From: Macrocystis pyrifera
Taxonomy: Eukaryota; Sar; Phaeophyceae; Laminariales; Laminariaceae
Direction of reading: 5' to 3'
NCBI GenBank assembly: GCA_031763025.1
Contig: JASSKH010000009.1
Coordinates: 620,001-684,000, forward strand
Length of the DNA stretch: 64,000 bases
Shown here: positions 27,532-61,195 of the stretch, piece by piece
Numbering within the stretch: position 1 is the first letter of the stretch
Layout: every line of letters begins with the position of its first letter
Program-made: the position numbers and the translations under genes
Notes under the pieces: generated by a model
Told to the model about the DNA's origin: nothing
Seen by the model: only the letters and a program-made list of their open reading frames with translations
Database searches by the model: none

Positions 27532-28041
27532 TGGTGTGTATTTGGTATTTGTTATGATCAAGGTCGGAGCCGAAGACGCCACTTGTTATGATCAAGGTCG
27601 GGACACCTTGTATCCCTTGACATGTTTGCCTATGAAGTAGGTACTCGCTGGGACTCACGTGCGTTGTTTGCGTAGATATTTAAGAAGAGCATCTTTACAC
27701 CTTCCGTGCACGTGGAAACTGAGAGCAAATCTCGTGCCTCGCTGGGAAAACCCCTGGTTTCCCATCTAAAATACGCCTTCTAGGTACTACAAATACGATC
27801 CCAATACCTGAACCCGGTAATTACCGGGCTTTTAGCCTCGTTCAATGCAGTACCAGAACACATTTTATAAAATTATGAAATACGTTAGCTGTGAGTTCGA
27901 CTGATTAAGTAGTTGATACTCAACTTTGCACTGCTGCGTAATACGTCTCGTCTATATCCCATTTTTACTGAGTTTTACGAGTGTTACAATAAGCCGAACG
28001 CGCGTATTCTATAGGTAATTCCTTGTTAATACAGGGGACAA

Positions 28042-29190
28042 GTGTCGGAAATAAATTACGGTTACAGCATCGGCGACACGAAGCGGCACGGTGACAGCAT
28101 CGGTCACACGCAGCGGCACGGTTACAGCATCAGCCACACGAAGCCGCGCGTTTTCAGCACCGGCCACACGAAGCGGCACGGTCACAGCATCGGCCACACG
28201 AAGCCGCACGGTCACAGCTCGGCCACACGAAGCGGCACGGTTACAGCATCAGTCATACGAAGCATGACCATTACAGCACCGGCCAGACGAAGCGGCACGG
28301 TGATAGATAGGCCACACGCAGCGGCACGGTCGCGGCATCGACCACACGAAGCGGCACGGTTACAGCATAGGCCACACGAAACGACACGGTCACAGCTCGG
28401 TCACACGAAGCGGCACGGTTACAGTATCGGCCACACGAAGCGGCACGGTTACAGTATCGGCCACGCGAAGCGGCATGGTTACAGTACCGGCCACACGAAG
28501 CGGCACGGTCACAGCATCGGCTACACGAAGCCGCACGGTCACAGCTCGGCCACACGAAGCGGCACGGTTACAGCATCAGTCATACGAAGCATGACCACTA
28601 CAGCACCGGCCAGACGAAGCGGCACGGTGACAGATAGGCCACACGCAGCGGCACGGTCGCAGCATCGACCACATGAAGCGGCACGGTGACAGCATAGGCC
28701 ACACGAAACGACACGGTCACAGCTCGGTCACACGAAGCGGCACGGTGACAGCATCGGCCACACGAAGCGCACGGTGACAGCTCGGCCACACGAAGCGGCA
28801 CGGTCACAACATCGGCCACACGAAGCGGCACGGTGACAGCTCGGCCACACGAAGCGGCACGGTTACAGCATCGGCCACACGAAACGGCACGGTTACAGTA
28901 TCGGCCACGCGAAGCGGCACGGTTACAGCATCGGCCACACGAAGCGGCACGGTTACAGCATCGACCACACGAAGCGCCACGGTCACAGCTCGGCCACACG
29001 AAGAGGCACGGTGACAGCATCGGCCACACGAAGCGGCGCGGTTACAGCTCGGCCACACGAAGCGGAACGCTCACAGCTCGGCCACATGAAGCGGCACGGT
29101 TACAACAATCGGCCACACGAAGCGGCACGGTTACATCATCGGCCACACGAAGCGGCACGGTTACAGCATCGGCCATACGAAGCATGACGG
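28042..29190. repeat. 30-bp minisatellite with 327-bp higher-order unit
   Basis: About 37 copies of a 30-bp unit whose core is CACACGAAGCGGCACGGTTA, with ACAGCATCGGC completing it. Some units are 26-28 bp (the ACAGCTCGGCC variant). A block with an AAGCATGACCATTACAGCAC variant near 28260 recurs near 28590, and the match AAGCCGCACGGTCACAGCTC starts at 28201 and again at 28528, giving a higher-order period of 327 bp. Because 30 is divisible by three, decapeptide frames stay open on both strands (GHTKRHGYSI plus, VTVPLRVADA minus). No ATG starts the plus-strand frame, so coding is doubtful. Confidence 0.9.
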
Positions 29191-30365
29191 TTACTGCATT
29201 ATGGATTATGGCAAGGGGGTGGATCGAAAGTGCACCAAAAGGAATGTATGTGGTCGTACTGCTGTTGCACGTTCTTCCCAGAACACTAAAAACATTAACA
29301 CTACACTCTTCGATTTTTTGGTCGATATACTATAATCAAGACACAAAACGTAAAGTTGAGAGCTTTTCGTACCTGATACTGTCATGCACTCTGTCGGTTC
29401 TGCTGCTCCTGGTGGTGTAGAGATGTAGTGCCTATATGTCCCTTTAAACTGCAGCAGGTGCCTGATACATGTAATCACAGCTCCTTGGCTGCGACCAAAC
29501 TTCTAAGAACGTATTGGTCGACAATATTCGACCCCCTCCAAATGCGCCAGTTATGCTTCGGCAGTTTGTTTTTGTCCGTGCCTGAACGGCAGAGCTTTTC
29601 TCAAAGCAAATGATCACGAGTTGGTTAACCATTTGTCGGATGGGATATGAAATAATACTGGTACAACCAATTTTTATTTTCGAAGAAGAATCGACCACCT
29701 AGAATGCTTTATTTGCCGGTGCTGGCACTGTTGTTGGCTGTTCTTTCTGCTGCCAGATTCCCCCACCCCCAGGCTGCTGGGTCTTTTGACGCGTTCCTTC
29801 CTTTCGCTTTGTGCGTGCTTGGTCTCTTTCTATGCGTCGAGTATCTGATACCTGACCGTAGAGCAGGGCAATCGTTGTCCTGCTGTTCCCTTAGTGTTAC
29901 CATTCACCTGCTAGTATTTCGTGGTTTTGCGTAGTTTTGTGTTGTATTGATCAAACCTGGTACATGATACAGCAGCGCGGAGAGTAGACTTGTCGAGTAT
30001 CTGATACCTGATTCCGGTTACTTTTATAGCGTTCCTTTGTTTTTTATTTCTCGCGTGGTTTGCGTTTTTTGTTTGTCTACGCTTTCTCGTGTTTTGTTTT
30101 CTGGTGAGAACCTACCACGCTGTCCCCAAAGGGTAGGGGTGATGGAGAAACATCAAATACGATCGATATATGAGGTTAATGATTAATGCTCCTGCGCGAA
30201 ATTCAATAGCATGAAGATCGTCACATCATCGCCCCACATGCATTTTTCGTTTTTCTTGTTTTTTTTAGTGTCCATGACCGCGACCACCCCCGGTCAACGC
30301 AGTTCTTTAGCCCCAATTGTGATGGGATTTGAAGCAAAAACGCGTTATTTTTAGGGAGGCACCCC
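29191..30365. other. Intergenic, no gene recognised
   Basis: Short overlapping frames only. 29704-29930 encodes a hydrophobic stretch (LPVLALLLAVLSAARFP) on the plus strand. It could be a signal-peptide-like exon, but no splice context or homology supports it. Confidence 0.25.
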
Positions 30366-38999: not shown

Positions 39000-39785
39000 A
39001 GGGGTTGATTGATTTTACCACCAAGCCCCAAGCGCCACGCTCCCAAGGGAGGATTAATTAGTGATTGATCACACATATCGGATCACGTACGTACATGGAA
39101 CAGATTGCCTTGTGTTGCTGTGGTACAAACACAGGATCTGGGAGAAGCTTCGGTCGGTGATCAATTTTAGGATCTAATATTTTCAGGGTCTTTGGGGCTT
39201 CACGGGTTTTATGCGAGCATCGGCTTTAATGACGACATAACAAGGCAATTAAGCTCACAACTGCATTGGTTGATTAATGAGGGCGGGTCCTTTCGAAAGA
39301 AAAAAGAAAAAAAAAAAAACGAGTTTTTTTTTGGTAGCGCGTATCAGTACTGTCGATACGTACTCGTGTATGGTTGGAAAGTTAGAATTGTACTCCTTGC
39401 TGTTCCATTCCAACTTTCGATTTTAGGTCCACTGGTATGGGATTACATAAAAAATGAGAGGGCAACATGGTGGGATTTTGTCTTTTTGAATAGTGTTCCG
39501 GTTGAGAGCATTCCACTTTTCTTGGGATTCGGCGGCGTCAGCACGTAGAAAAAAATGAAAAAATGAAAGTTGACGGCAGAACGGTCGTATTAATATAATA
39601 GTAACGTGTTTGGATTGGTCTTTTTTCTTGTACGAACTGTTCAGGACTTTCCATGTTTCTTTCGAGTCGGCGTCGTCCGCACGCAGTAAATAGATGGTAC
39701 CTGGTACCTACCTGGTACGTACCTGGTACGTACGTACCGTACCTTCTATCCGGAAATACCGAGACAATGTTGTTTGTGTACGAAT
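39000..39785. other. Intergenic, no gene recognised
   Basis: 39192-39548 is an open frame on the plus strand with a hydrophobic segment, but it has no recognisable domain. 39690-39740 is packed with GTACCTGGTACGTACC-type words. Confidence 0.25.
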
Positions 39786-44640: not shown

Positions 44641-44848
<208 letters not shown>

Positions 44849-46431: not shown

Positions 46432-49400
46432 CTGAATGGCCCATGCCCGGGATGGCCTGAAATGTCGCCGTCATGCCAAGCCCCTCCTGTATAAGTTTGT
46501 GACTGAAAACAGCACCAAATGGCAAGAGGCGTACGTATCACCAGTAGATGCGTGAGCGAGGGCGGAGATTGCACATCTAAACGTTTGGTCATCATCGAGT
46601 AGCACCTTGCTATAAAACCAACCCTTTGGCGGGGTTGAGAGAGACAACATCACCAAATCAACGCAGAATACAGCAATTAGCCACACAAAACCAACGCGGT
46701 TTGCTGGGTTAGGGTATGGCATGCTGCAGTGAGTGTTACCACGTATGAACACCATGCAGATGGTGCACAACACGCGCGCAGCAGCACTACTGCCCGTACC
46801 ACAGTAGATAAGCACTCGACAAGACCACAATGCTCACGTTTCTTGCCCCTTACACTATTTAACCGGTGCAAATAACGTACGTCGGCCTCAGCCCCAGAGG
46901 GAACCACTGTAGCACTAAACAGAACTATAAAAAAACTAATGCGCTTTCGCCACAATGTCCGAGTATAGCGCGCCCGCCGCACAATAGCCTACAGCCTTCT
47001 CTACGGCTGCACGCCCTTCGTTGGGAGATAAATTACTCGAAACTAGACAACAATCGTTTCTGCAGTGGGAGAAGGGGTATATAATCTTTTGGGAGTACAT
47101 GCATGTAATAATAAGGTACCGACCAATCAAACCTCTTCGGAGTAGAGCGGGGAAAATAGGCGGTGAAAAGAGGCGCATGACCCAACCCGTTCTGCTTGCT
47201 GCACAGGTGGCCTGGACCTGGACCTGGACCCCCCCCCCCCCTTGCACAATGGGCGTAAAACAATCCTTGAGGAGACGTTGATGAATACCTGTTAGTGCAG
47301 CAAACCCCACAGACAGGGTGTCGACAACCTCTCAGTTCCGTTCGTTCGCCTAATGGTGTGCTACCTTGTTCAATGTCTCCACAAGGATGCTTTTTTCGCC
47401 CAAACTGCGAAGGGGGGGGCGTACCCATCTGTTGCTTGCCTTAAGTCATTTGACCATTGACCACGCATCCCTTTCGAGGCGGGAGGGGGATGTACTCATT
47501 ATCATGCATGGCCGTAGTCGTATGACTATAGACCGTTGGGTTTTCACCGACCAGGCAGACATTGCTTGCACCAAGCGCGAAGGGGGGGGGTCCCGACCAC
47601 CTGTTTGAGCGCCAAATGGTGCGCTATCTTGTTCAATGTCTCCACAAGGATTTTTTTACTCCTACACTGTGCAGGGGGGGGGGGGAGGTCCCGACCACCT
47701 GTGTGGGTGCTCACGCTGATCGTAGACGGTTGACAACACCAAAAGCACACAATTGGTTTGGCCGCTATCATCAACACCCAAAGGGATAAACGACGAGTGC
47801 GGTCTGTCTCATCCGGCGACTACGGAAAACATGAAGCAGCAGCACCAAGTGTCACCATCACTACCATGCTGCTCGCTTGTGGTACAGCCAGCTTCTGACT
47901 TTGCAATTCGTACACGCGCCCTGTTCCGGCAGCTCGGGCTACACCGTGTGGGCGACGCTGAATCTCATCGTAATTTCTTTTTTTTCGACACGTTTTCCAT
48001 CTCAAACTCCGAAGGAATTCGCAAGAGATCCTTAACAGAGGTAATCCATAAGGTAATCGATAGAAGTACTGATAGCTGACAGGAAACCATGTCCCGAATT
48101 ATAAAGAACGTTTGTACAGAAATATTGAAACAAACCGTCCTGATAGAATGGAAGGTGCCTAAGCCGAGTGCAACCGAAACTATAGCGCAAGAATCACCCG
48201 CCTGGGGGGGTTCCGGAGCGAAACATGAGCGTACCGTGGCTCTATCCGCCGCTGCAAGCCCGGCACAAACAATGGACGGGCGTCCGTACTGAATGAATGT
48301 CTACAGAAGTTTAATGTACCTGGTAATCCTGCGTACTGACCTACTGTGTATTGCGCACTGATCTAATGTGTACTGTGCACTGACCTACCACTGTGTACTG
48401 TTCACTGACCTATCTTGACCCCAGGTGAAGCGGACCGTCTCGTCCCTCGTCCCATGGAATTGCGCAACTGGGATGTTCTTCGCCGCGCTGCCGAGAGCTT
48501 CTGGGTACTGCTTGTTCATGGGAACCCACGCGCTGCAACCGACGCACCCTATCCACACCCACCATTATCACCACCATCATCATCACCGAACAACAATCCA
48601 CGGCAAGACGCGACAGAGTTTGTATGAGCGTAAACTGAAAAGGAAAGTAGCGAGCGCTTGCGACATCACGTATATAGTGCAGGCAGCAGGAGCAGGAGCA
48701 GCAGAAAACGACAGTCAAGACGAAAGGTGACAAGCAGCGACAGACGTTGTATCAACAGGTGCTTGGACGAGACAGCAGGACCGAAGCTACAGTAGCTATA
48801 GTAGCGACTGCGATTTCAGGAATATGATGCAGGCAGACACTGGACGAGCGGAGAACGGAGAACGGAGGCCCGAGAAACTCCTCAAGAAATAACACGAAAT
48901 AACCCGCACTCCGCGAGAACGGGGGCGCACACGAGGAGCCACAGCACCACCTTCCGAAACAAAACCCACAGAACGCCATCCTCGACGACCTATATTATCT
49001 GCAGTAGTGACCATTACGGGGGACCATAGTAAACAGTACCTATGGTACACACAAAAACCTATATATTTACCTATTTTTACTAACAAAATTTGGTCCTGTT
49101 TACTATGGTCCCCCGTTCTAGCACGCCTCGACTACATAATAGGGTCACTGCAATGCGCGATAACGGCTGCAGTATCAGGTACTGTAACGCAGAAGCTGGG
49201 CGACAATAGCACCAACAGCCTCCTGAAAAATACAAACCTCCCGAAGAATGAACATCGAATTGCCTGCGAGAGACTCTATATATTACGGAGGCCCACCAGC
49301 CATAGCGCCTCTCTACCAAACCCCGCGGACCACCACTTTGCCCTGGGGTAATATCACGCGCCGAACCAAGAATAGAGTAACCGCGATCAGCGCTGGCCGC

Positions 49401-52400
49401 TGCGGTATCAGCTGTAAAATAATGCAGAAATTGGTCGAAAATTGCAAAAAAAAAGTCTCCTGAACAGTATGAACCTCCTCAAGAACACCGGATTGCCCGC
49501 AAGGGCTTTTCAGGAGGCGCACGTGAAGAGCCACAGCACCTCCCTGTGACTTCCGAAACAAAACCCACAGACGGCCATCCTCGACTGTGTACTTTCCCTC
49601 TAGTAATTTCACGCCCCGACTCAAGCCTAGCGGAAGCATAATCAGCGTTGGCGGCGGCAATATCAGCTACAACTAGTGGGAAACACAGTTCATAGTCGAA
49701 AAGAGCAACAAGAACCGCTTGAACAGTTGAAAACCTCCTCGAGAATAAACACCGAAAGGCCGGGAAGAGACCCCATGAAGACGGGGGGGCACACATGAAG
49801 AGCCACACTACTGCACCTCCCCACGAAAGGCCACAGACCACCAGTCTCGACGACCTTTTCTCCCCAGTAAAGGAGACAGGACGCCCCGGATCAAGAAAAG
49901 CGCGAAACGCGACAAGAGAGAGCTGGCGGCTGCAGTATCAGCTACGGTCGAGCAGAAACTGGTCGAAAAAATACGACAGGAACTTCCTACCCAATAAAAA
50001 TATCCTCGTCTAGAAAGAACCTTCCGTAGAACAAACACCGAAAATTGAGTTCAAGAACTCCATGCAAAAAGAGAGAGGCGCACACACGTATCATGAGAGC
50101 CACAGCACGTACCAGGTACATAAAGAGCCACAGCACCTCGTTCGACAGGCCATAGACCGCGACAGTCGGCGACCGACGCGTTCGACGATAGGGGTGCCAC
50201 TTTTCGGCCAGATTATGTCGGAGTGATGCGGCTTATCTTGTCGTCAGAGAAACTACCCAACATCGATTGTTTTTACGAATCGTTTTCGATGCAGACCAGC
50301 CTTAAGCGCATGGGGTAGCTCATCGGCTTTCGTGCGAATTGGTCCTTGAGGCAAGTTTTTGGGTGCAATACAGAGCTGCTCAGGTAAGGAGCCTCACAAA
50401 ATTTGCGGGTGCATACCTATCGTAGGACGCGTCGACGTCTTTCCCCTAGCAGTATCACGCCCTTACTTGGAAGAATAGCGCCAAACACCAGCAGTGCTAG
50501 CGGCCGCAATATCAGCTACAAGTAGTGCAGAAAATATTCGATTAGAGCATCAAGAACCTCCTGAACGATACGCAAGAACCTGGAAAATGACCACCGAATT
50601 GTAGTCTAGATTATTTCAATCACACTTCGGCTCTTGTGAGGACCCACACCACCTCCCTAAGAAAGCCCACCGTTCACCACTCTCGACGATGTCTTGTCCC
50701 TAGCTATAGTAATATCACGCCCCCACTATAAAAAAAAAAGTGCAAGCACAATCAGCGCTGGCGGCTGCAATATCAGCTACAAGTAGTGAAAAACTGCAGT
50801 TCATAGTTGAAAAGGGCAACAAGAAACTCCTGAGAGCCTCCTCCAGAACAAAAACGTTTTTTTTTCTTGAAAGACACTTTCATGAGCACGCCGGCACACA
50901 TGTACCGCAGTAGAGCCCCACCACCACACCAAGGAAGTCTGCAGACCACCGTCCTCGGCGATCTCCTTTCCCCCTAGCAACACCACGGCTCAACAATAGC
51001 GGGTGCGTGATCAGCGTTGGCGACTGCAATATCGACTGTGAGGTGCGGAAAATAGTCGACAAGAGCAACGAGAACTTCTTGAGCAGTTAGGACTTCCCGA
51101 ATAATAAACACCGGATTGTCTGAAAGAGACTCCATGGACATGGAGGCACACATGAAGAGCCACAGCACCTTAGCAAAGCACACATACCTGCTAATCTCGA
51201 TGACCTATTCTCCTTAGTAATAATAATCACGCTCCCGACTCAAGAAAAGCGCGAACGAACTCAGCGCTGGCAGATGCAATATCAGCTAACGCGGAAAAAG
51301 GCCGAAAAGAGAAACACGAGCCTCCTGATCAACCTGCCGAAGAGCAACAAGCTCTTCGAGACCAAGAACCTCCTCAATGATAAGAACCCCATGTAATAAC
51401 AAACACCGACTTGCCTGCACGAGGCTTCATGAACACGAGGCACATGAAGAGCCACAGCACCTCCCTACGAACTCTGAGAAACTGTCAGCCCCGAAAATCT
51501 CTTTGCCGTACTGATAAAACAACATGCTCCGGATCGAGAATCGCGGCAAACGCAATCAGCGCTGGCGACTGTAACATCAGCCATACAGAGTGAAGAAAAG
51601 AGTCGAAAAGAGTCGAAAAGAGCAGCAAGAACCTTTTAAACGACAAGGACTTTCGAGAAGAACAAACACAGACATGCCGACTAGAGGCTCCGAATACGGG
51701 GGCACACGTGAAGCGCCACAGCACCTCCCTGCCAAAGACCACCGATCGGCAACCTCAACGACTTCTGTTATAAGAGCTACTGCTGTATATCAAGTAGAGT
51801 ACAGAATACTCGAAAAGGGTAGCAAAAACCTCCTGAATGAAAAGAGCCCCCTGACAAAAAAAACACCGAACGCCGGCAAGAGATATCATGACACAGAGAC
51901 ACACAGGAGGAGCCACATCATCTACACACGTACGCAGGTCTGCTGATCACCATCCTCGACGAGTTATTTTACCAACAGCACGCCATGGCTCCACGATAGC
52001 GTGAACGTATGCAGCGCTGGCGGCTGCGACACCAGGTATTGCAGAAATTAGTCGTGAAAATGCAACAAGAAACTCATTGATAAACAGGCACTTCCTGAAC
52101 AAGAACCAGCTAACGAAGAATTACCTGCAAGAGGCTCCGTGGAGCGAAGGCACACATGAAGAGCCACAGCACCTCCCTGGGAAAACCCACCCACAATCAT
52201 CCTCGCCGAGTCCTTTCCCTTAATACGTTCCGCCTCTAGAATTGAGCGGACCCGGTTAGCGCTGGCTTCGAATCCCTGGAAGAGGGGTCGCGACACGAGT
52301 TCGATGGTGTACGATGGCCGGGCGGGTAGGCTAAGATGGCAATCAACAAGAGCGAAGGAAGACATTCTGGCAACCGAGGAACAGGAACGCACGCACGTAC

Positions 52401-55400
52401 GGACAACTACAACCTATCTCACTCTTGACCCATTGCTCATAAATTACATCTTCTGGACAAGAATTAGAGCCGAGATGATGGCTGTGAGCCGACGGTCATA
52501 CAATATCTTCTGGACAAGAGTCGGAGTCGTCTTCACGACAAGAATCGGAGCCGGTCGATCGCGCTCGAGTAAAAAGGAGGGAGGGCGGGAGGGAGGGGCT
52601 GCAGGCGCCTGCAACGCCGACCGCGCCGCTCGAGAAATTAGAGTAACAGCGGCAAGGGAAGATCGGAAAAAAGAGACGCTGATGGAATGACGCCGAGGAA
52701 AGTGCCCACCCACACGCTCTGTGTATAATGCATATGTCGTGTGCGGGCGGTCAGGGGTGACAAAGCGGCATTCCCAGCTACTACGCATGAAGAAACTTAC
52801 GCCACAGGGTGGTAGCTGCCAAGTTTTGCCAGGTTTCCCGTAACGCCAAGAGGTGCATACTATATATATATATACCTCACACAACAAAACACTCGACTCT
52901 TACAGTAGAGAGACAGTTGCACGCCCAAGCCGACGGATAACGCCATGGGGTATGAGGGATCTCATGCATACAATCGTGAAACATAAATGGCATCGCGGAT
53001 ATATTTGGGTAGGTCATCTGTTGAGTCCTGCCAGTTGCTATTGAACCTGAAACGTACCCGGGACATTCTTCACAAAGAGACACGAGCCTGCTGAGTACTT
53101 GCAAGCACTTGGAATGAAATATCTCTGCTGAGCACTTGTAACTAAATACGTCAAGCCCACATACCGGTACCAGGTACCACTCTGTTCGTGAATATAATGC
53201 TCGTTTGGACTCCGATAAGAACATCCAACCGATATTATATTTCCGGCCAGCATGGTATGCTATACTGTGTGAGAGATACACCACAACCACTGAGCTACTC
53301 GTACCTCGAGCTCTGACTACTACTAATAATACCAGTACAAGTGGTAGATATAAATACTGTTAACTTTAACTGGCCACCTGGTATAGTGTATCTGACCAAA
53401 GCACCATCTGGGGTCCGTTTCGGTGTTAAGGGTGGACCTCATATTCACCGAAGGACGAGGGGGGGAATGGAACCCCACATTGTGCTTTCGTTTAAAGATC
53501 GGTGCTTTTGACGGAGACCGCTGAGCTGGCAGTCAACATAGTACACCAAAAGCATTGGGCTGTATCTGATCACGACGGCTAGCTCAGTGGTTTTGACTGC
53601 TACCACAGTGATAATGGCAATGAGAGCCATTAACAGTTCGGTAGTTCGGTAGTACCACTTATTTCATGGCGTATCTCCAACATCCCGAGAAGAAACAATA
53701 GAGTAGTCTAACAGGACGAATAAAGCAGATTGGGACGAGGATCGAACCTTTTACCTCCGAATCCTCTGGGAACTCCGAGCCGAGCCCTTTCAAGTCAGAC
53801 CATCCCGGCATCTCGTACCCACCGTTCAAGGTGATGGGCCTGTCGAGCAGGAGCACGCCACACGTGACATAGGTGTAAGGAACATGCGCTCAACTTAACC
53901 CCCTTGTGCTCCAGATGGAAAAACTACCGGAAAAAAATGACGATTACAGCATTGGCACAAGGCTTCCTTCGACCACGGGGGGAAGTAGTTATGATAACCA
54001 AATATGATATGCGAACTAAAGAGGATACCTGTTTTTTTAGTCCATCGTGCGTTCTGATTACTATATCCCCCCCAATAGTACTTCGTATGGGCCTTGGTGT
54101 GCAAATTACTACCAGTACGCAACAAGGAGTTGCAAGGCGCGCGCCCATCACGAGAATTACAAAATTACCTGTATACTGCTGCCCACCCGTACTAGACGGT
54201 TTTGATACGATACGGCCGCACTAACTTGCGTTGTTCAGGTGGCTATATGGCTAGATATACAATGGGCCCCCACAAGAGTTGAGAGCTTGGGTAGCAGTTC
54301 ATGGCACTGCACACACTAACCCATACCAAGAGTGAACGAGTTGCTCAAACCGGAGCATCTGCCTTTGCCATGTGCTTTTCCTTCGATAACTAGACGATAC
54401 GAGGACAAAATAATACGATTCTGCGAGGGGACGACCTCCCACCCCCCCCCCCCCCCCCCCCCCCAACATGACACGTGGTCTGCAAGCGTCACACAATCTT
54501 AATCTTGTGCACACGCTATGACACGATCGCATGTTCGGTCACCTAGAGTCAGCCGTTGGCAGAATGAACTTCGTGTCCTCCACACCAAACTCCGGCATGG
54601 ACCCCACCCAGCCTTGAGCCTGCGCAAGGGAACATGTTTTACAGTTTTAATAGTATGTATTAGGGATCCTGCTTTCGACTACGCAAGTGATATGGGTCAC
54701 ACCATGCGTCCAGGCTATCGGTGCGGAGGGTGGTGGGCTGTTCGCCGTCCTGAGGTCCCGACGAAGAGCCAACGATATTTGACATGAATACTATGGTATC
54801 ATACCAGTCTTAACACACAAAATCCTTACCCCGACCACTACTGCAAAAAATATCGCACTCTAATTCCAAGTTATTAATTTGCGTGCAGTACTTGAGGGGT
54901 CAAGAGTAAAGGGGGGTATGTTCGCTATACGCTGAACTCCTTCAAACGCGGACCCCTGCTTCGGGGACAACATGTTTGCAGCTACTACTGTACACCAGGA
55001 ACGCATTGTCTTCAATTCAACACCAACAAGTATGAAACAATGACGGCTTATTCGTGCGACAACACCACCAAGCCAAGTGCCTCACCGCCAACATGTCATG
55101 CGCTCTAAAACAAGCATCCAGCAGTGGACCTGCTGACTGTACGTACGGACGCTGGACATGTCGTGCCATTTGTTTTATCGGCTGTCTGAAGCTGACAAGT
55201 TTGTAACGCAGTACAGAGCCAGTGCTAGTGGTGTAGCACCGACAGCTATCAAGGCTGCTGTCAGCGCCTCTGTTGCAGAGGTACACAATCTACCTCATAT
55301 TGGAACGTGGTGCTAATCCAAGTACAGTAGTCCAACGGCTATCGATCTGCTACGGCGGTTCTACAGTAGACTATACCCTATTCTTACCAATACCAGGTAT

Positions 55401-55687
55401 ACAGCCCAGCTACTCCTTGCGTGTACGAGTACGTACGAACATATTTTTACGATTATATACACCTGGGTACAATAGATAAAACATCAGGTGCATCCATATA
55501 TAAACAGCAGCAGCCACCATTGACAAAAAAAAAGAACCAGCTACGTATGTATGTACCAACCTGTTGCCAGGCATTACATGCACTGGATACGTTGTAAAAC
55601 ATCAATGTCATTATTTAGTACCTGGTAGTCTCTTACCGTGTCTCCAAGGCCGTGCAGCCAGACCACCACGTTTTTGTACGCGCCACC
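46432..55687 (-). CDS. Acyl-protein thioesterase / lysophospholipase (alpha/beta hydrolase), six exons
   Basis: Cytosolic serine hydrolase of the APT/LYPLA type (Abhydrolase_2 family), which removes palmitoyl groups from proteins and hydrolyses lysophospholipids; function is from family knowledge. Minus-strand exons: 55687-55637 (VVVWLHGLGDT), 54619-54543 (AQGWVGSM, TKFILPTA), 53839-53755 (PITLNGGYEMPGWSDL, PEDSE), 52275-52125 (GGFSQGGAVALHVC with the catalytic Ser), 48548-48410 (CSAWVP, FHGTRDETV with the catalytic Asp, FTWGQD) and 46502-46432 (AIPGMGHS with the catalytic His). All five junctions are GT-AG and phase-compatible, and the 191-residue join follows the family's motif order without a gap. 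The first N-terminal exon (before the GGAYKN start) and the final helix after GHS were not located, so the model is partial at both ends. Introns are 1017, 703, 1479, 3576 and 1907 bp. Confidence 0.88.
46503..48409. other. Thioesterase E5-E6 intron with repeats
   Basis: This intron holds RepC pieces (47230-47435, 47585-47715), a LINE 3' end (about 47410-47482, minus) and a RepA 3' fragment (about 47487-47580, minus), all bordered by C/G tracts. Open plus-strand frames at 46866-47084 and 48089-48292 are not recognisable. Confidence 0.55.
47410..47580 (-). mobile_element. LINE 3' end and RepA fragment in series
   Basis: Reading plus coordinates: G(8), then the LINE terminus CTGTTGCTTGCCTTAAGTCA and CACGCATCCCTTTCGAG. 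A G-rich joint follows, then RepA in inverse form (GTACTCATTATCATGCATGG, CACCAAGCGCGAA), then another G tract. The two elements are joined through homopolymer sequence. Confidence 0.7.
48830..52124 (-). repeat. Tandem array of ~11 decayed copies of the catalytic-serine exon
   Basis: About 3.3 kb made of a roughly 200-330-bp unit in the same orientation as exon E4 (52125-52275) and ending against it. Each unit has the exon plus flanking intron: GCTGATATTGCAGCCGCCA at its start, a GTGGGTTTT core, GGTGCTGTGGCTCTTCATGT (the nucleotides for GAVALHV), GAGCCTCTTGCAG, then a linker with AACCTCCTGAACAG-like words. Plus-strand landmarks of the ...GAGCCACAGCACC block are near 48930, 49290, 49516, 49790, 50125, 50640, 50890, 51145, 51440, 51700 and 51905. 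Between GTGGGTTTT and GGTGCTGTGG most copies carry indels (for example a TTTCGGAAG insertion, giving GFVSEGGAV), so none keeps an intact GFSQGG. One copy is split by MITE family 1 (49014-49117). Confidence 0.8.
49014..49117. repeat. MITE family 1 inside the exon array
   Basis: Ends TTACGGGGGACCATAGTAAA and TTTACTATGGTCCCCCGT. It interrupts one of the decayed exon copies, so the array existed before this insertion. Confidence 0.85.
52276..53754. other. Thioesterase E3-E4 intron with tRNA-like fragments
   Basis: 53430-53545 (minus) has AGCTCAGCGG and GTGGGGTTCCATTCCCC, an A-box-like and T-arm-like pair. 53575-53595 (plus) has TAGCTCAGTGG, and 53265-53305 (minus) has TAGCTCAGTGGTTGTGG. None folds into a complete tRNA with a paired acceptor stem. 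Confidence 0.4.
53840..55636. other. Thioesterase E1-E3 introns
   Basis: Apart from exon E2 (54543-54619) nothing coding is seen. A C(20) tract lies at about 54443-54464, and a decayed MITE family 2 segment at 54840-54965. Confidence 0.45.
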
Positions 55688-59112: not shown

Positions 59113-59440
59113 TAACAGGGGGGGGGGGGGGGGGTACTCATTGTCATGCATGGCCGTAGTCGTATGGCCATAAGCCCTCGCACCCTTACAACACCGGGAC
59201 GGAGCACGTCGGGTGTTCACCGACCAGGAAGACGTTGCTTGCATCAGGCACTAAGCGCCGTGAGGTGTTCGGTGACTCGGATAAAGGGTGAGCTGCATTC
59301 TACTAAGAACCGCTGATGACGCGAACTTCGGCAACTTGTGCACACTTTCTTGCATATATATGGATGACAGCGTGGAACGACTTGGGGGGAGGGGGGGGGG
59401 GGGGGGGGGGGGGTGGGGGGGGGGGGGGGGGGGGGGGGAG
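59113..59440 (-). repeat. RepA copy, minus, with G tracts at both ends
   Basis: G(18) at 59116-59133, then TACTCATTGTCATGCATGGC, CCGGGACGGAGCACGTC and CACTAAGCGCCGTGAGGTGT to GGATGACAGCGTGGAACGAC. It then runs into a second G tract of about 55 nt with three interruptions (59384-59438). Confidence 0.8.
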
Positions 59441-60983: not shown

Positions 60984-61195
60984 AAAACAGCCACCTTTGG
61001 CACGAGGGTAGTCCCCTTCCCCCCGAGGCCATCTCCTGCTACCCGGTCCAGCTGCACCCGCGATGAAGTAGACATGCTGAGCTTGGATGCAGAAAGCGAC
61101 GAAGGACAAGATGGGAGGTTCTTGCAAAACGCAGTTATTCGACTTGCACGAACCAGCGAGCTGAACATGAACAGGACACCCACCCCTCTCATCAA
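60984..61195 (+). CDS. Possible upstream exon of the Gly/Ser-rich gene
   Basis: Following AAAACAG at 60978-60984, the plus strand is open and protein-like: TRVVPFPPRPSPATRSSC, then RDEVDMLSLDAESDEGQDG and RFLQNAVIRLARTSELN. A donor is not obvious (AAGC|GTTGTT near 61198 is one option), so assignment to the downstream gene rests on strand and proximity. Unknown function. Confidence 0.3.

Follow-up and report, generated by a model that had tools for sequence, protein, structure and literature searches.

Degenerate tandem copies of a catalytic-serine exon in an acyl-protein thioesterase intron of Macrocystis pyrifera

An intron that carries serial copies of the exon preceding it raises the question of whether these copies are, or once were, alternative exons of the gene, or whether they are the remains of a repeat that happened to start from an exon. 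This is the case of an acyl-protein thioesterase gene of the brown alga Macrocystis pyrifera, encoded on the minus strand of a stretch of 64,000 nucleotides (positions 620,001 to 684,000 of contig JASSKH010000009.1, assembly GCA_031763025.1), which we call the window and whose own numbering is used below. The exons of this gene run from about 61.2 kb (E1) to 44.4 kb (E7), and the gene is complete as far as its exons are readable. The intron between E4, the exon with the nucleophile motif GFSQG, and E5 contains eleven degenerate copies of E4 (U1 to U11, Table 1). As argued below, the locus is probably a relic, vivid but ordinary, in which a repeat has decayed, and not a set of alternative exons.

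The presence of degenerate E4 copies inside the E4–E5 intron was confirmed by several searches. When the E4 exon alone was used as query, nhmmer returned, beyond E4 itself, eleven matches, one per unit, ten of them at E<0.01 and that of U7 at E=0.63. No copy was found elsewhere in the 64 kb window, and the reversed window, searched with E4 as a control, gave 0 matches at E up to 10. Similarly, a profile combining E4 with the 11 units matched, within the 64 kb, only between positions 52266 and 48830. All eleven copies lie in the E4–E5 intron in the same orientation as E4, with a spacing of about 250 bp. The original prediction, made from the letters alone, that a catalytic-serine exon had given rise to about a dozen copies in its own intron, in one orientation, with a periodicity of about 250 bp and in linkage to this gene instead of being widespread, was thus borne out, the last point at the scale of the window. 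The units measure 222–295 nt, except for U7 (574 nt) and U11 (341 nt), both of which carry inserts, and the 250-bp units went unreported by Tandem Repeats Finder at its default threshold. Downstream of U11 lies one more possible remnant, which was weak, its two scores being reached by 15/500 and 14/500 shuffles, and was left out of the unit count.

Two of the units showed additional features of their own. The insert of U11 (49018–49114) is bounded by terminal inverted repeats, with GGGGGACCATAGTAAACA at the ends, and resembles a miniature inverted-repeat transposable element, the ends of which have no second exact copy in the window. In U7, a block GTGCTGTGGCTCT appears twice at 50080–50140, flanking GTACCTGGTAC, a motif also found in a small tandem array at 39697–39733.

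The boundaries of the units define the segment that was duplicated. The matches of the copies begin at position 9 or 10 of E4 in seven of the eleven cases and at positions 59, 59, 64, and 95 in the other four, none of them starting at positions 1–8. The tail that leads into the units aligned with the intron downstream of E4 (score 55, reached by 0/500 shuffles), and showed no match to the acceptor region upstream of E4 (score 10, reached by 483/500 shuffles). Taken together, the start positions and the origin of this tail indicate that the duplicated segment ran from codon 4 of E4 to about 100 nt into the next intron, so that the head-to-tail unit, locally confined within the window, consists of E4 from codon 4 plus about 100 nt of intron. 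Neither the acceptor of E4 nor its first three codons are present in the copies. An AG is kept at the unit start in 7/11 units, but it derives from sequence other than the acceptor of E4, and TTGCAGCC, which the earlier proposal read as splice-side sequence kept in the copies, corresponds to the junction between the end of one unit (intron downstream of E4) and the start of the next.

The consensus of the copies, taken as an approximation to the founder unit, was already broken with respect to E4. It has 12 columns more than E4 at mid-exon and one more near the exon end, a net gain of 13 that breaks the frame, and it shows a TAG in place of the CAG (Gln) codon that directly follows the catalytic Ser codon. 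The first base of this codon is T in six copies, C in three, G in one, and a gap in one (n=11), with a posterior for T of 0.9986 that rests, as do all the founder posteriors, on a star tree and the MAFFT alignment; reading the same column by eye from its right-hand side gave T 7, C 2, G 2, which shifts single copies and leaves the majority unchanged. In addition, the consensus donor is GC and not GT, position +2 being C in nine copies, A in one, and T in one (n=11). Differences between consensus and E4 fall on codon positions 1, 2, and 3 at 14, 8, and 14 of 48 sites each, and this absence of a third-position bias suggests that the founder had drifted before the burst of amplification. Judged from these features, the founder would have been unable to replace E4 in frame when it was amplified. 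At the amino acid level, 19 of the 47 codons differ between founder and E4, and 5 of these 19 carry a residue found in at least one of six homologues, which suggests a duplication older than some of the replacements in E4, a weak signal from which the array was not dated.

In the individual copies, read from codon 4, the exon-like part contains a stop in 9/11 cases, and the stop-free pair, U9 and U10, is out of the frame of E4 both at the Ser codon and at the exon end. Only U1 and U6, both with stops, are in the frame of E4 at the exon end, so that an open frame able to replace E4 (phase 0 to phase 1) was found in 0/11 copies, and GT occupies the homologous donor place in 1/11. A regular expression for GxSxG found five occurrences in the intron over three frames; at the place homologous to E4, a stop-free version is retained only by U8 (GLSWG), U6 reading GLS*G there (the asterisk being a stop). 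The claim that this core is broken has U8 as an exception, and the companion claim that every copy retains GAVALHV was too broad, as this string appears, in some frame, in four of the eleven (U2, U3, U4, and U9). No signal in the sequence supported a role of the copies as a source of catalytically dead isoforms.

Divergence after the amplification was also examined. The copies depart from the consensus at 120/500, 121/502, and 108/500 sites of codon positions 1, 2, and 3 (24.0, 24.1, and 21.6%; p=0.57), a codon-position comparison in which no coding-type constraint was detected among the 11 copies. Departures amounted to 349/1502 in exon-like columns, the two donor bases included, and to 232/909 (25.5%) in intron-like columns; both parts being equally diverged, no retained constraint is visible. 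Each copy lies 19–32% away from the consensus in a star-like tree whose internal branches account for 7.5% of its length, and transitions and transversions are in a ratio of 188:185 at well-supported columns. A special conservation of the block GGTGCTGTGGCTCTTCATGTGTGCC among the copies, considered at one stage, was withdrawn: it exceeded column permutations and simulations at uniform rates (best-window score reached in 0/60 at each of two rates) and was matched once rates were allowed to vary among sites, with scores reached in 13/200 (mild variation) and 73/200 (stronger) simulations for the 25-column window and in 31/200 and 101/200 for the 15-column window.

With these data, we consider that the array is very probably a relic of pseudoexons. 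A tandem duplication that broke on the left within E4, at codon 4, and on the right about 100 nt into the next intron would have generated a truncated second E4 devoid of E4's own acceptor. This truncated copy would then have decayed, acquiring the stop after the Ser codon, the +12 and +1 insertions, and the change of the donor from GT to GC, before growing, through the unequal exchange or replication slippage by which other tandem repeats expand, to about 11 units in a comparatively short time. From then on the units would have drifted neutrally, and the array would simply leave with its intron in normal E4–E5 splicing, without any selected function. While the copies, the breakpoint, the broken consensus, the neutral-looking divergence, and the star-like tree are read directly from the sequence, we infer the order of events and the exchange mechanism. 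That splicing ignores the copies is likewise inferred, from the missing splice sites and from the fact that all six brown-algal homologues (P0001 to P0006) join E4 directly to E5.

Several observations weigh against this history or blur its details. At the distances that separate the copies from their consensus, single features of the founder depend on the alignment and on the star-like tree, and the lengths of the insertions differ among copies. Six of the eleven copies are in the frame of E4 at the GG just after the Gln codon, and U3 contains just one stop, the TAG after Ser; the founder may thus have had an open frame as far as the Ser codon. Copies that lie next to each other are slightly closer in sequence than those farther apart (Mantel r=0.30, p=0.033), so the amplification was not one single instant. 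Finally, over GAVALHVC the consensus agrees with E4 at 31 columns in a row, a length reached in 2/200 neutral simulations for each of two settings; this may point to gene conversion, although purifying selection on E4 may also explain it.

Among the alternatives, the one that survives best, although very unlikely, is that a small amount of splicing today uses the copies as poison or decoy exons, which would reduce or regulate the thioesterase mRNA. The AG kept at the start of most units would fit this, as would the number of open, phase-compatible candidate exons with GC donors in the intron, 102 compared to 63 (s.d. 20) in shuffled sequences, about 1.9 s.d. high in a count with many overlapping candidates. 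Candidates with GT donors, in turn, showed no excess (120 compared to 93, s.d. 30; 100 mononucleotide shuffles for each donor type), and both the near-complete loss of GT at the homologous donor place and the uniform divergence of exon-like and intron-like parts speak against such a use. We regard as very improbable a related proposal, in which the array is a retained splicing-decoy device whose copies, with no usable GT donor, draw splicing factors away from E4 or E5, or act as rare poison exons, thus tuning thioesterase mRNA, with the stretch over GAVALHVC kept identical to E4 for this purpose. Should splicing of the copies be real, decoy exons would have a striking example beyond animals and plants.

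Little credit can be given either to the suggestion that this was a mutually exclusive exon array now in decay, in which the copies were once used instead of E4. Eleven tandem, same-orientation homologous units of similar spacing are what such an array would look like, an exon of 151 nt, not a multiple of three, would favour exclusive use, the +12 insertion is frame-neutral, and six copies are still in frame just past the Gln codon. However, the copies lack the acceptor and the first three codons of E4, the stop, the +1, and the GC donor were already there in the consensus, the codon-position signal is absent, and only U1 and U6, stops included, reach the exon end in frame; this part of the original prediction was not supported. 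The satellite that captured an exon, also contemplated in it, came closest among its readings. By contrast, a dispersed satellite or element that contains an E4-like stretch and has no special link to this gene is extremely improbable, for even if brown-algal introns are rich in repeats, according to passages of PMC12477816, no copy lies in the remainder of the 64 kb, the unit joins exon sequence of E4 without a break to the intron that follows this exon, and, as a weaker argument, the protein searches described next gave one match to the U8–U9 frame and none to the U1–U3 frame.

Signs of the array beyond the window were sought among predicted proteins. The frame that spans U8 and U9, with 193 candidates scored, matched one 95-aa frame on a 3518-nt contig of another assembly, with 82/87 residues identical followed by a frame different from that of the window, which speaks against an artefact of the present assembly and suggests an indel difference. 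A search with the plus-strand frame over U1–U3 gave nothing among its 4 candidates. Likewise, no hit was obtained in an exact scan of viral contigs with a 25-nt word of E4 or in Rfam and tRNA scans of the window, and no report of this locus was found in the literature at the level of titles and abstract openings.

Regarding the host gene, the open reading frame that contains E4 matched PF02230 at E=1.1e-10, and the exons with GFSQG (E4), HGTRD (E5), and GMGHS (E6) all align to brown-algal homologues. In the acyl-protein thioesterase family, these motifs provide the catalytic Ser, Asp, and His, respectively, and the gene has the exons for all three. The best thioesterase matches were P0001 (77% over the joined query), P0002, and proteins of Ectocarpus, Choristocarpus, Pylaiella, and Discosporangium; P0001 in turn matched the structure of human APT2 (6bje_A) at 7.9e-45 and also that of human APT1. 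With its Ser-Asp-His motif set and its membership of PF02230, the encoded enzyme appears to have nothing unusual. A micro-exon supposedly missing between E4 and E5 was dropped, since the CVGCSAWVP of P0001 is part of E5. The intron that follows E5 opens, directly behind this exon, with 3.4 repeats of a 22-bp unit (48335–48412).

Table 1. Exons of the thioesterase gene, the E4–E5 intron, and the units of the array, in positions of the window.
Feature	Description	Positions	Strand	Basis or remark
E1	from ATG, MRGVGVLFMFSSLVRASRIT...GTTLVPK	60995..61192	-	homologous to P0001 N-terminus; limits by eye
E2	GGAYKNVVVWLHGLGDT	55637..55687	-	limits by eye
E3a	AQGWVGSMPEFGVEDTKFILPTADS	54545..54619	-	motif scan and comparison with P0001; limits approximate
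E3b	(R)PITLNGGYEMPGWSDLKGLGSEFPEDSE, then GT donor, phase 0	53755..53839	-	limits by eye
E4	intact catalytic-serine exon, GGFSQGGAVALHVC, 151 nt, phase 0 to phase 1, GT donor	52125..52275	-	PF02230 match of ORF
E4–E5 intron	3576 nt	52124-48549	-	
U1		51795..52027	-	
U2	without its 5' part	51573..51794	-	
U3		51278..51572	-	
U4		51028..51277	-	
U5		50769..51027	-	
U6		50508..50768	-	
U7	split by stretch without profile match at about 50184-50419	49934..50507	-	
U8	sole copy with E4-like GxSxG (GLSWG)	49659..49933	-	
U9	near-identical protein stretch in another assembly	49404..49658	-	
U10		49171..49403	-	
U11	split by short terminal-inverted-repeat element (about 49018-49114)	48830..49170	-	
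E5	catalytic-Asp exon, CVGCSAWVPMNKQYPEALGSAAKNIPVAQFHGTRDETVRFTWGQD	48410..48548	-	alignment to homologues; 3' limit by eye
E6	catalytic-His exon, HKLIQEGLGMTATFQAIPGMGHS	46432..46502	-	limits by eye
E7	ACQEELEGIGEFMRKVLPEA and stop codon	44365..44426	-	limits by eye

Other repeats were detected in the window. A 1.1-kb tandem array at 28058–29199 is built from a 30-bp unit present about 38 times (83% matches). Short peptide repeats, HGYSIGHTKR and GTVTASATRS among them, can be read in some of its frames, but stops occur in all six over 28000–29300. In addition, long G runs were found at 44645–44751 (107 nt, 98% matches) and 59384–59438 (55 nt, 92% matches).

With eleven copies of one sequence evolving side by side and apparently neutrally, this brown-algal intron could be useful for the study of the mutation spectrum, and the array may also preserve, in part, an earlier state of the exon as a fossil. 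It also contains a warning for homology-based searches for mutually exclusive exons, as a dozen well-spaced exon homologues can be the satellite of an already dead exon.

How does this locus compare with known systems? In tandem exon duplication, passages of Ivanov and Pervouchine (2022, PMC9013439) place exon homologues beyond the annotated exons in introns, and the present case shares with it the presence of exon-homologous sequence in an intron of the same gene; it differs in that the array is old and star-like, consists of about 11 units, each a truncated exon with adjoining intron, and has a consensus that was already broken. With mutually exclusive clusters such as that of Dscam exon 6, as presented in part of PMC6071210, the similarity lies in the serial, same-orientation copies of one exon in one gene, but here 10/11 copies have no GT donor, 0/11 have the frame of E4 open, and the divergence looks neutral. 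The locus resembles such a cluster in its layout and, as far as its letters tell, departs from it in splice sites, frame, and constraint. Within brown algae, passages of PMC11378527 report arrays of leucine-rich repeat (LRR) exons in ROCO genes, with exon shuffling, alternative splicing, and diversifying selection; these are also repeated exons inside a brown-algal gene, although the ROCO exons are coding whereas the thioesterase copies are non-coding. According to parts of PMC12477816, about 46% of the Ectocarpus genome is intronic, with a fairly even distribution of tandem repeats, so an intronic array as such is unsurprising. In conclusion, units of about 250 bp amplified in tandem in an intron, and decaying there, bring the locus near to the general kind of intronic, minisatellite-type tandem repeat, from which it is set apart by a traceable seed, the neighbouring catalytic exon of the host gene.

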